This document shows positions 9,001-59,276 of a stretch of 64,000 nt of DNA, in pieces. The position numbers and the translations under genes were made by a program. This DNA is from a bacterium. GTDB lineage: Bacteria > Planctomycetota > Planctomycetia > Planctomycetales > Planctomycetaceae. Each line of letters starts with the position of its first letter. Within the stretch, counting starts at the first letter, position 1. The notes under the pieces are model-generated. The model saw only the letters and a program-made list of their open reading frames with translations, did no database searches and was not told the origin of the DNA. Location: the NCBI GenBank assembly GCA_016124895.1, contig WGMU01000019.1, positions 1-64,000 on the forward strand, read 5' to 3'.

Positions 9001-9196
9001 CCGTAGGCCGGGCCGAGCGAAGCGAGTTCCGACAAGAGCTTCGAGTCTCGGTTCGGGCTGCCGGAACGGCGCTCCGCCTGGTCCGGCCTGCGAATCCTCA
9101 GCAACCGCAACTGTCAGCGATCGCACCGTCCGTTTGCACCCGCTCCACGCATCCTACTGTTCTGCCGGAACTCGCTTCGCTCGGTCCGGCCTACGG
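9001..9196. repeat. three-unit inverted repeat element
   Basis: The 31-base arm 9001-9031 and the 31-base arm 9166-9196 are inverted copies with one mismatch (core GAGCGAAGCGAG). A third, diverged copy lies at 9061-9092 (CCGGAACGGCGCTCCGCC followed by TGGTCCGGCCTGCG) in the same orientation as the right arm. The element fills most of the gap 8993-9316 before the glycosyltransferase gene and has no coding potential. It could fold as a long hairpin in RNA. Such dispersed palindromic units are common between planctomycete genes. Confidence 0.7.
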
Positions 9197-9316
9197 ATTT
9201 GCGACAGAAACGTCGCGTCCGACATTGGTCTCGGCTCCGTCGCAGCCTCCTCATAAACTCCGTGATTCTGACGGTCCGGACAGAGAGTCCGGCGGCGGTG
9301 ACCCAGGAGCGACTCG

Positions 9317-48469: not shown

Positions 48470-49735
48470 TCAAACCTCGGGAGCGTAGAGGACTTCGTGT
48501 TCGGTGCTGCCGGGTGAGTAGAGCACCAGGCCGCCATCGACGCCGTTGACTCGGACAACGCAGTCCGGCTGTCCGGCGGCGGCGCGTTCGAGGATCGCTT
48601 CAAGAGCCTGCACCGTCGCAACAGTCTGGCGGTCCGCGCTCAGATCGTTGTAGTTGAGCCGCCGCATTTCGCTCAGACGGTCAGCGCGGCCGGACTCATC
48701 GCCGCCAAACTCGACATAGGCGACTTCGCGGACGAACCGCTCAATCACCTCGACACCGTAGCCACGCTCGGCTCGCTCGCCCCAGGGTTCAAGGCACGGC
48801 GCGTTGTAGTGGTTGTTGAGGGAATTCTTGATCGAGAACGGCGTCTTATCCTCGACGGTGCATTCGACGCCGCGTTTCCGCGAGTGGCCGTTCCACAGAC
48901 CGTTGTCAAAGCGGAACTGAACTTCCTGTTCGACATAACCGGGAAAGTTGTCCGGCGTGACCCAGGAGGTGTGGATGTCGAACGCGGCCTCGCGGCCATC
49001 GTCGTATTCGTAAACCATCCGAAGCTGCGTACTGTCCCAGGTGTTGCCGTCCTGAGGCCCGACAATGCCACGCTGTCCGGTCGCGGTCACCGTCTTGAGT
49101 TTTCCGCCGAAGCTGAAATCGATCAACTTGATGTAGTGGCAGGCGACGTACGTGCCGGGGTTGCGACCCGTGATCCACTGAGCGAACTGAGCGCCGGAAA
49201 TCTGCTTGGGCTCCAGCAGCGAACAGTATCCACTGTTGACGTGCTGCAGGACATCGTCCTGATAAAACGTCCGCATCCGCTTGTGATCGGGATCGAGCAG
49301 CTTGTGGTAGACGACTTTGGCGAGCAGACCTTTCTGCTCAGCAAGTTCAACCAGCGCATCCAGTTCCTGCAGCTTCAGCACGGACGGTTTTTCGACGATC
49401 AGATGCTTGCCGGCTGCGAGCGTCGCCTGAGCGGATTCAAAGTGGCGATCATCTGGCGTCGCGACGCAGCAGAAGTTGACGTCAGATTGAACGAGATCGG
49501 CACCCGAATTATCGCCGACGAAACTCTCGAACGGGAAGATTCGGTCGCCGGCAGCCTTTCGATACGCCTCAGCACGGGAACCTGTTCGTGAAGCCACGGC
49601 AGCGAGTTGTACGTCGACCTCGCCGAACCGACGATCGAAGAGCCCCTTCACCCGGGCCTGCTCGAAAAACGGCCGGTACGTCTCCTCGAAAATCATCCCC
49701 ATACCGACCATACCCGCGCGAAGCTGCCTGCTCAC
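48470..49735 (-). CDS. Gfo/Idh/MocA oxidoreductase, cytoplasmic
   Basis: This 421-residue protein starts with the Rossmann motif MVGMGMIFEETYRPFF, has EKPSVLKL for the family EKP motif, and a longer substrate-binding C-terminal domain with QRGIVGPQDGNTWDSTQ and FDIHTSWVTPDNFPGYVEQE. There is no signal peptide, unlike the paralog at 47067. It should catalyse NAD(P)-dependent oxidation or reduction of a sugar or polyol. It lies beside KDG kinase, so a sugar-acid pathway is possible. The 5' region upstream is unusually structured, with a candidate minus-strand RNA and a strong intrinsic terminator 161 bases before the start. Confidence 0.9.
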   Translation of the reverse strand: MSRQLRAGMVGMGMIFEETYRPFFEQARVKGLFDRRFGEVDVQLAAVASRTGSRAEAYRKAAGDRIFPFESFVGDNSGADLVQSDVNFCCVATPDDRHFESAQATLAAGKHLIVEKPSVLKLQELDALVELAEQKGLLAKVVYHKLLDPDHKRMRTFYQDDVLQHVNSGYCSLLEPKQISGAQFAQWITGRNPGTYVACHYIKLIDFSFGGKLKTVTATGQRGIVGPQDGNTWDSTQLRMVYEYDDGREAAFDIHTSWVTPDNFPGYVEQEVQFRFDNGLWNGHSRKRGVECTVEDKTPFSIKNSLNNHYNAPCLEPWGERAERGYGVEVIERFVREVAYVEFGGDESGRADRLSEMRRLNYNDLSADRQTVATVQALEAILERAAAGQPDCVVRVNGVDGGLVLYSPGSTEHEVLYAPEV

Positions 49736-49889
49736 AATGCGTCCCCCTGTCGCCGAAATTCGAGATATCCAAGCGGGAGGCAGTCTGATCGATGGCCGCA
49801 GATGGGAAAAGCGAGCGGAATGGTGAAAGCGGAATCAGCAAAGCACCGATCATTGCAGCGAACAACTTCTCGCCAGCAGCCACCCGCGC

Positions 49890-50090
49890 ATAAGAAAACC
49901 CCCCGGCGTCTGGCCCGACCGCCGGGGGGTTCCCGAGGATTATCAAATTAAGCAGGACGAACTGGCGGCTGCCATCCCGGACGTTGCAAAGTTCCTGTGA
50001 AGGACTTTTCTGACCGATTGGCAAAGTCCGGGAAGCAGCACAGACCAGTTGCTGAAATCCAGAGATGGGCAGCCCGGATTTCAGCATCGT
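49890..50090 (-). ncRNA. candidate structured RNA or leader ending in an intrinsic terminator
   Basis: Read on the minus strand, three structures follow each other. First is an 11-base perfect hairpin TGCTGAAATCC (50050-50060 with 50076-50086). Second is a stem of 13 pairs with one mismatch (49975-49987 with 50021-50033) enclosing a smaller AAAG(T)TCC/GGACTTT hairpin (49988-49995 with 50002-50008). Last is a perfect 12-base terminator stem followed by TTTTCTT. This matches a short noncoding RNA or a long regulated leader of the Gfo/Idh gene starting at 49735. The 5' end is undefined. No match to a known RNA family is recognised. Confidence 0.45.
49897..49931 (-). terminator. strong intrinsic terminator, minus strand
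   Basis: The 12-base arms 49897-49908 (AACCCCCCGGCG) and 49920-49931 pair perfectly across 11 bases. On the minus strand the stem is followed by TTTTCTT; on the plus strand it is followed by CCCG, so it works leftwards. No annotated gene ends here, which is why an unannotated minus-strand RNA or leader attenuation is proposed. Confidence 0.85.
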
Positions 50091-50306
50091 GACGTCGGCA
50101 ACCTGATGGAGTGTGAAATTGCTGACGCCTGCTATCTTGGGATCGTATTCCCGGCCTTTTCCGGAAGCAGATTCTGTCGTTTTTTTCTGATCGCTGTAAG
50201 TTACTGCTCTGCTTCGGGTTGCAAGAGCTGCAGATCCCGAAAACTGCTGAACAAAAACCCGCGTCTCCGGTCGTCCGAACCGGCGGACATTCCACTGGAG
50301 ATGAAC

Positions 50307-51398
50307 ATGCGAGTTGTCACATTTGGCGAAGTCATGCTGAGACTGGCTCCGGAAGAGTTCCTTCGCGTGCGTCAGGTCATCCCCGGTCGGCTCGAAGCGA
50401 CGTTCGGCGGAGGTGAACTGAATGTCGCTGTTTCAGTCGCGTTTCAGGGAGGAGCGTCTGCATTTCTGACAACGTCACCGAACAACCCGCTGACCGACTG
50501 TCTGGTCCAGGAGATGCGGAAGCTGGGTGTCGATGACTCACTGATTCAGCGCGTTCCGTACGGACGGTTCGGTATCTACTTCGTCGAGACGGGGGCGAAT
50601 CAGCGCGGTGGGACGGTGATCTACGACCGGGCTGAATCGGCGATCGCGCTGACCGGAGCGGATGGCTACAACTGGCCGGCATCGCTTCAGGGAGCCACCT
50701 GGTTCCACATTACGGGAATCACACCGGCGATCAGCGGCAAGGCCGCACAGGCAGCGATGGCCTCGGTTCAAGCCGCGCGTTCAGCAGGAATTCCCGTGTC
50801 CTGCGACCTGAACTATCGCAAGAAGCTGTGGAAGTGGGACCCTCAGACGCAGCCGGTCGAACTGGCTCGACGGACGATGCGGGAACTCGTGCAGTCCGTC
50901 GATGTCGTCATTGCCAACGAAGAAGACGCTGACCTCGCGCTGGGCATTTCGGCGCCGGACTCTGACGTCGAGTCCGGTCAGATCAACACAGCCGGGTACG
51001 TGGCCGTCGCGCGGGAAATCGTCCAGCAGTTTCCGAACGTCTCTCAGGTCGCCATCACGCTGCGGGAGAGTTACTCGGCCAGCCACAACAACTGGGGAGC
51101 CATGCTGTATCACGCGGCCTCTGACGCAGCCCACTTTGCACCGCTGAACAGCGCTGGTGATTACTCACCGTACGAAATCCGCAACATCGTCGATCGCGTC
51201 GGCGCGGGAGATTCGTTCGCAGGCGGACTGATCTTTGCGCTGAACACGCCCGAACTGGCGGCTCCGGAAACTGCGATTCGGTATGCGGTCGCGGCGAGCT
51301 GCCTGAAACACAGCATCAAGGGCGACTTCAACTACTCGACGCGCTCTGAGATTGAGGCCCTGATGGGCGGCAGCGGCTCGGGACGCGTGCAGCGCTGA
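50307..51398 (+). CDS. kdgK: 2-keto-3-deoxygluconate kinase (PfkB family)
   Basis: This 363-residue PfkB-family sugar kinase phosphorylates KDG to KDPG. It opens VVTFGEVMLRLAPEEFLR, has the ATFGGGELNVAV substrate strand and the second PfkB signature DRVGAGDSFAGGL with its catalytic Asp near residue 301. The long FGIYFVETGANQRGGTVIYDR strand fits KDG kinases. GGAG lies 6 bases before the ATG at 50307; an ATG at 50301 overlaps that spacing and is less likely. The matching aldolase (53361) is 2 kb downstream on the same strand, so KDG can be carried through to pyruvate and glyceraldehyde-3-phosphate. Confidence 0.9.
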   Translation: MRVVTFGEVMLRLAPEEFLRVRQVIPGRLEATFGGGELNVAVSVAFQGGASAFLTTSPNNPLTDCLVQEMRKLGVDDSLIQRVPYGRFGIYFVETGANQRGGTVIYDRAESAIALTGADGYNWPASLQGATWFHITGITPAISGKAAQAAMASVQAARSAGIPVSCDLNYRKKLWKWDPQTQPVELARRTMRELVQSVDVVIANEEDADLALGISAPDSDVESGQINTAGYVAVAREIVQQFPNVSQVAITLRESYSASHNNWGAMLYHAASDAAHFAPLNSAGDYSPYEIRNIVDRVGAGDSFAGGLIFALNTPELAAPETAIRYAVAASCLKHSIKGDFNYSTRSEIEALMGGSGSGRVQR

Positions 51399-58565: not shown

Positions 58566-59276
58566 TCAGAAGCCTCGGCGAATCAATGTCAATTGCCGAT
58601 AGTTCTCATAAGCCAAGCTGCCGAAAAGCAAGCCGATATACCACTGCCCGATGTCGAGAGAATATGCAGCGACCGCCACGCCGGTAACGAGGCCAACTAT
58701 GTGCATCCGACTACGCCCCTGGATGCTGGACCTCGCGTCAAAAACTTCTCGGCAGATATTGCCACCGTCCAGTGGGTGAACCGGGAGAAGATTCATCAGC
58801 CCCCAGAACAGATTGATGTATTCCAGGCGTTGGAAGGTAAACACAACTGTTTGCCCCATTCTGCCAGTCCGCAGGCGGACGGCCCATTCCTGGCCTGCCT
58901 GGACTGCAGAATCCACCGTCACGTCCAAGGTGAAGACAATTCCAAAGAGAACAAACCCAGCAAGCGGGCCTGCAAACGAAATCCAGACGGATCGACGCCG
59001 GGTGAAGCCATGAGTGGGCTGGAAGAAAGCAAGGCCGCCGAACACATAAAGTAAGATGTGCGGCGACCAGCCATAGCTTCGAGAAGCGAACGCGTGTCCG
59101 AGTTCATGAACAAGGATCGAGACGAACACGCAAGCAACCCAGACTCCCGTCAGCCGGAGATTGCCCGGCTGAAAGCCCATCATGACCGCCATTAACCAGA
59201 ATAGAGGATGAACCCGTACCGGAATGCCAAAGGCCCGAAAGTTCAGGTCGTACTCGGTGGTTGCAACAGGGAGCAT
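58566..59276 (-). CDS. site-2 protease family (M50) membrane metalloprotease
   Basis: This 236-residue integral membrane protein has the M50 zinc site HELGHAFA within a hydrophobic segment (VFVSILVHELGHAFA) and the second metal motif PLDGGN in place of the usual NPDG (NLLPVHPLDGGNICREV). Several transmembrane helices flank them. Site-2 proteases cut substrates inside the membrane, often anti-sigma factors or signal peptides. No PDZ domain is visible, which places it with short rhomboid-like or SpoIVFB-type members. The substrate is unknown. It shares a strand with the esterase upstream, with a 33-base gap. Confidence 0.9.
   Translation of the reverse strand: MLPVATTEYDLNFRAFGIPVRVHPLFWLMAVMMGFQPGNLRLTGVWVACVFVSILVHELGHAFASRSYGWSPHILLYVFGGLAFFQPTHGFTRRRSVWISFAGPLAGFVLFGIVFTLDVTVDSAVQAGQEWAVRLRTGRMGQTVVFTFQRLEYINLFWGLMNLLPVHPLDGGNICREVFDARSSIQGRSRMHIVGLVTGVAVAAYSLDIGQWYIGLLFGSLAYENYRQLTLIRRGF

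Follow-up and report, generated by a model that had tools for sequence, protein, structure and literature searches.

The locus and its predicted structures

The element analyzed here lies in a 64-kb stretch of a Planctomycetaceae contig (hereafter, the window), within an intergenic gap of 571 bases (49736-50306) that separates a minus-strand Gfo/Idh gene from a plus-strand gene for a PfkB/KDG-type kinase. Its features, in window coordinates, are the following:

48470..49735, minus strand: Gfo/Idh/MocA oxidoreductase gene, with a GTG start at 49735, about 160 nt beyond the terminator
49890..50164, minus strand: proposed free-standing small RNA (sRNA) gene, with its 3′ end at the terminator and its 5′ end between about 50090 and about 50164, the outer limit being inferred from the promoter-like block
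49890..49931, minus strand: intrinsic terminator, with a 12-bp G+C-rich stem, CGGGCC in the loop and the tail TTCTTAT
49960..50049, minus strand: hairpin 2, a long interrupted stem enclosing a nested hairpin, aligned to hairpin 2 of relatives by the covariance model R1 described below
50050..50086, minus strand: hairpin 1, with a perfect 11-bp stem and the loop GGGCTGCCCATCTCT
50171..50200, minus strand: conserved promoter-like block CTTACAG-N17-CAGAAT, a candidate shared divergent promoter region
50307..51398, plus strand: divergent gene for a PfkB-family kinase (KDG kinase-like), with an ATG start at 50307 and a match to Pfam PF00294 (E = 3.5e-26)

A preliminary, sequence-only reading of the window had described an 11-base hairpin, a stem holding a nested hairpin and a 12-pair terminator inside the 571-base gap, and the fold analysis bears this description out. 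The arms of hairpin 1 form a perfect 11-nt inverted repeat (50050-50060 / 50076-50086), and its loop contains a UGCCC motif (CTGCCC at 50072-50067). The long stem of hairpin 2 joins 49975-49990 to 50018-50033 (16 nt, 88%) and extends outward to about 49960 and about 50049. The terminator arms (49897-49908 / 49920-49931; 12 nt) are 100% complementary, and TTCTTAT follows them on the minus strand. A dedicated scan ranks this stem among the longest perfect ones of the window; a generic terminator scan missed the site at 49890-49931, since it limited loops to 8 nt and the actual loop has 11. The predicted fold of minus-strand 49885-50095 reaches −96.2 kcal/mol, compared with −71.5 ± 4.7 for shuffled sequences (z = −5.25, 0 of 200 shuffles), and on a 200-nt grid across the window z falls below −4 in only 4 of the 319 minus-strand tiles. 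Folding is good on the plus strand too (z = −4.8), as would be expected for any inverted repeats; the T-rich tail after the terminator stem is found on the minus strand only.

Stable folding is also seen elsewhere in the window. An intergenic inverted repeat at 9003-9198, with arms like GTAGGCCGGGCCGAGCGAAGCGAGTTCCG / CCGGAACTCGCTTCGCTCGGTCCGGCCTAC, is very stable (z = −7.3) and resembles palindromic elements of the REP type; at the related locus L071, a palindrome of similar kind (GTAGCCGGACTC...GGTCCGGCTCC) is found immediately past the RNA's terminator. Another well-folding stretch, on the minus strand at 59000-59210 (z = −4.2), overlaps long ORFs.

The element in related genomes

The kinases closest to that of the window (78-80% identity) have a minus-strand RNA upstream whose parts come in the same order. 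In five species of genus g45, this divergent RNA lies beside the kinase gene and consists of a hairpin, a second hairpin and a terminator, with 370-392 nt from terminator start to kinase start, versus 375 nt in the window. The window thus shows the synteny used to define the group, with an RNA divergent from the kinase gene and a terminator approximately 330-430 nt from the kinase start. Terminator position and the CGGGCC loop are common to the window and loci L070-L072, L074, L075 and L081. UGCCC occurs in a hairpin loop at all 8 of the 8 intact loci, although so short a motif (5-6 nt) has an appreciable chance frequency.

The five g45 sequences were aligned by sequence only with MAFFT (alignment A1), with no fitting to structure. 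Hairpin 2 is conserved at 95-100%, the linker before the terminator at 16-48%, and conservation decays past the terminator. Across the 66 named pairs of A1, standard pairs fill 96.3% of cells, and both sides have changed in 8 pairs, against 2.5 in shuffled alignments, with none of 500 shuffles reaching 8. Most hairpin-2 pairs in g45 are invariant and covariation is limited to these 8 pairs. The sequence-only reading had proposed searching the same gap in relatives for compensatory changes, and in g45 both conservation and such changes are present.

These patterns also bear on coding. On the minus strand of the window, a 115-aa and a 172-aa ORF run through the region, and one might suppose that either encodes a small protein, represented in g45 by the VVTVGPVLSVSSSG frame. 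All five g45 species have an open frame across hairpin 2, and the 115-aa ORF of the window stops just before the terminator. Yet the three codon positions share the variable columns evenly, with no codon-position bias, the hairpin-1 ATG does not keep to one frame, the C-termini differ and it is base pairs that are kept by the changes. Neither ORF matches a Pfam family. With no such match and no coding pattern of codon positions, we rejected the small protein, which we deem extremely improbable.

The RNA extends beyond g45. At the syntenic locus of G042 (L081), R1 finds a match with E = 1.3e-7. In G007 (L076), the interval approximately 240-365 nt upstream of the kinase gene holds a single minus-strand hairpin of about 105 nt (z = −5.7), whose loop ACTGCCCTCGCTGG is identical to the 14-nt loop of g45 and whose closing stem doubles as terminator; it is a condensed, one-hairpin form of the same RNA. 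Among 170 genomes, g45 and G007 are the only ones in which this 14-mer loop motif is linked to the kinase, and its other occurrences are about as frequent as those of the reversed control. A further genome of genus g45, G047, has naturally lost most of hairpin 2 and the terminator through a deletion (L073, 4509-4659), which provides a natural knock-out for comparison. In the kinase tree, RNA-bearing kinases form one clade (support 100/99) that includes one RNA-less kinase (L077). Since this is the single exception, one gain and one loss suffice to explain the distribution. Family- and class-wide searches have so far located the RNA in four genera of one family.

Gene order past the terminator discriminates between two readings of the element. 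The sequence-only reading had offered, as one option, an attenuated, riboswitch-like leader ahead of the Gfo/Idh gene at 49735, in which the terminator would be conditional and the upstream hairpins would sense a metabolite; in the window, that gene indeed lies about 160 nt past the terminator and in the same direction. The relatives do not fit this option. The gene past the terminator encodes a FabA-like dehydratase in g45 (plus strand), a C92 peptidase in G007 and another Gfo/Idh protein in G042, all convergent with the RNA, and only in the window is the next gene co-directional. Because that gene points the opposite way, the RNA cannot be a leader in these relatives, where it stays with the kinase. 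Gfo/Idh orthologues at about 60-75% identity exist in many relatives, but the 800 nt upstream of 28 of them contain only a few scattered terminator-like sites, none resembling that of the window. Together with the lack of an Rfam match, these results leave the leader very unlikely. The informative comparison is therefore with the divergent neighbour and not with the downstream gene. The divergent KDG kinase, a link absent from the sequence-only reading, is the conserved neighbour of the RNA. That reading had also noted the sugar-acid context and entertained a metabolite sensor; the sugar-acid association holds, while no evidence for a sensor emerged.

Membership of the RNA and known families

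Whether the RNA of the window belongs with those of its relatives was evaluated with R1, a covariance model derived from the five g45 sequences only, with the window left out. R1 matches the window at full length on the minus strand (49894-50089; 29.7 bits, E = 2.1e-6 in 64 kb), and in the 8.1-Mb genome to which the window belongs this site is the sole match at E ≤ 1 (E = 2.6e-4). Under stricter filters in 170 genomes of the family, the best RNA-less locus scores 22.7 bits, against 29.7 in the window. The terminator carries most of this score: with R1 stripped of its terminator, the best score in the window is 3.5 bits. In G044, R1 gives 24.7 bits to an ordinary terminator that follows a PEP-CTERM-like gene. 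A second model, R2, includes the window and is not counted as evidence of its membership; we rejected its matches in G044, as an ordinary gene terminator, and in G002 and G076, which look like terminator or repeat hairpins. Plain DNA searches of relatives returned short chance matches only, and the best from one of these searches, in G006, was rejected for lying inside a coding frame (acyl-CoA ligase-like).

Pairwise similarity between the window and g45 is concentrated in the terminator (z of 4-6) and the 5′ flank (z of 0.8-3.4), with the hairpin bodies at z of 0.6-1.8 and control kinase loci mostly below z = 1.7. Terminator, 5′ flank and position make the orthology of the window and g45 loci well supported at the level of sequence and synteny. 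The hairpin bodies of the window, as compared by sequence, are diverged and match g45 in architecture only, so homology in the window resides mainly in terminator, 5′ flank and synteny.

This uneven conservation might also fit a different role, that of a terminator-only insulator stopping divergent transcription from the kinase promoter, with the intervening RNA decayed or idle and functionless in this genome. The terminator is the best-conserved part of the window element, hairpin bodies differ from those of g45, and the deletion at L073 demonstrates that the RNA can be lost. Strong, stable hairpins nevertheless persist in the window (z = −5.25), one of them with a UGCCC loop, and an insulator would have no need of a hairpin 2 that is near-invariant in five g45 species. 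We consider a pure insulator unlikely.

We conclude that the element is probably a free-standing minus-strand small RNA gene (probability of roughly 0.78). The sequence-only reading had named a small RNA as its other option, and conserved architecture, position and terminator, compensatory changes and the lack of a co-directional downstream gene in relatives all speak for it. The small RNA is a member of a clade-specific Planctomycetaceae RNA family encoded head-to-head with the KDG kinase.

That no known RNA family could be recognized from sequence agrees with the covariance search that had been suggested as a check. None of the 4227 Rfam families gives a gathering-level match in the window, relaxed thresholds yield only sub-threshold scores at chance level in the region (E ≥ 0.28), and the five relatives have no match at E ≤ 0.5. 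The best weak score in the region belongs to the histidine operon leader (RF00514; 22.2 bits, E = 0.28, gathering score 49). Like this and other attenuators, the element presents a hairpin followed by a G+C-rich terminator; in contrast to them, its relatives have no co-directional downstream gene and no leader peptide was seen. 6S RNA (RF00013) is similarly free-standing, of comparable length and built of long stems, but the RNA of the window has no single long stem bearing a central bubble. We rejected an identity with 6S RNA because 6S candidates lie elsewhere in these genomes: above the Rfam cut-off in G007 and G099, and outside the window on contig C62 of its own genome (G000:C62:32067-32249; 45.3 bits, E = 2.1e-7, cut-off 46.4). 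The nearest likeness in kind is to the actinobacterial (mycobacterial) 6C / B11 RNA, another free-standing sRNA having two loops with C-rich stretches. The present RNA has UGCCC(U/A)C as its loop motif instead of a run of C, belongs to a different phylum and adjoins a KDG kinase gene; the 6C / B11 model is absent among Rfam matches in the region at E ≤ 10. Our literature search found no sRNA adjoining a KDG kinase and no study of planctomycete sRNAs with a matching element. The RNA is thus a new, uncatalogued family of a known kind, the intergenic, self-terminated sRNA.

Proposed expression, mode of action and significance

Both the window and g45 have the CTTACAG-N17/18-CAGAAT block, whose CRGAAT part, together with the CC-containing stretch that follows, also occurs in G007 and G042. 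The TTACAG-AGAAT arrangement was not found in the RNA-less kinase loci that were checked. From this sequence conservation we infer that the block is a promoter region shared divergently by sRNA and kinase gene. Transcribed from this region, an sRNA of approximately 200-275 nt would end at its own intrinsic terminator (49897-49931), and, as a consequence of the shared promoter region, would presumably be made under conditions related to those of the kinase.

Once made, the sRNA may act in trans, with its UGCCC-bearing, C-rich hairpin loops pairing with G-rich (GAGGGCA-like) sites, for instance the ribosome-binding sites of mRNAs. Such loop pairing would proceed without Hfq. Hfq was not found in five of these genomes, using a search that gave a positive signal in control genomes. 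The C-rich loops of mycobacterial B11 pair with ribosome-binding sites (PMC10470900), and, according to the title of a paper cited therein, this pairing is independent of RNA chaperones. The analogy with 6C / B11 and the failure to find Hfq lead us to favour Hfq-free pairing through UGCCC loops as a working hypothesis, to which we assign slightly less than even odds. The conserved CGGGCC loop of the terminator might in turn kiss the GCCC of the UGCCC loops, and the terminator hairpin may thereby switch the RNA between closed and target-binding forms. The full picture of a fast-evolving, uncatalogued, Hfq-less sRNA family that is co-regulated with KDG metabolism, exerts translational control through UGCCC loops and is switched by its terminator loop is, taken jointly, doubtful.

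A 2022 survey lists 8 distinct annotated sRNAs for the PVC group (PMC9029176). With so few PVC sRNAs catalogued and Hfq not found in the five genomes, an sRNA that is conserved, syntenic and linked to KDG metabolism would provide a concrete and testable start for the study of RNA regulation in Planctomycetota.
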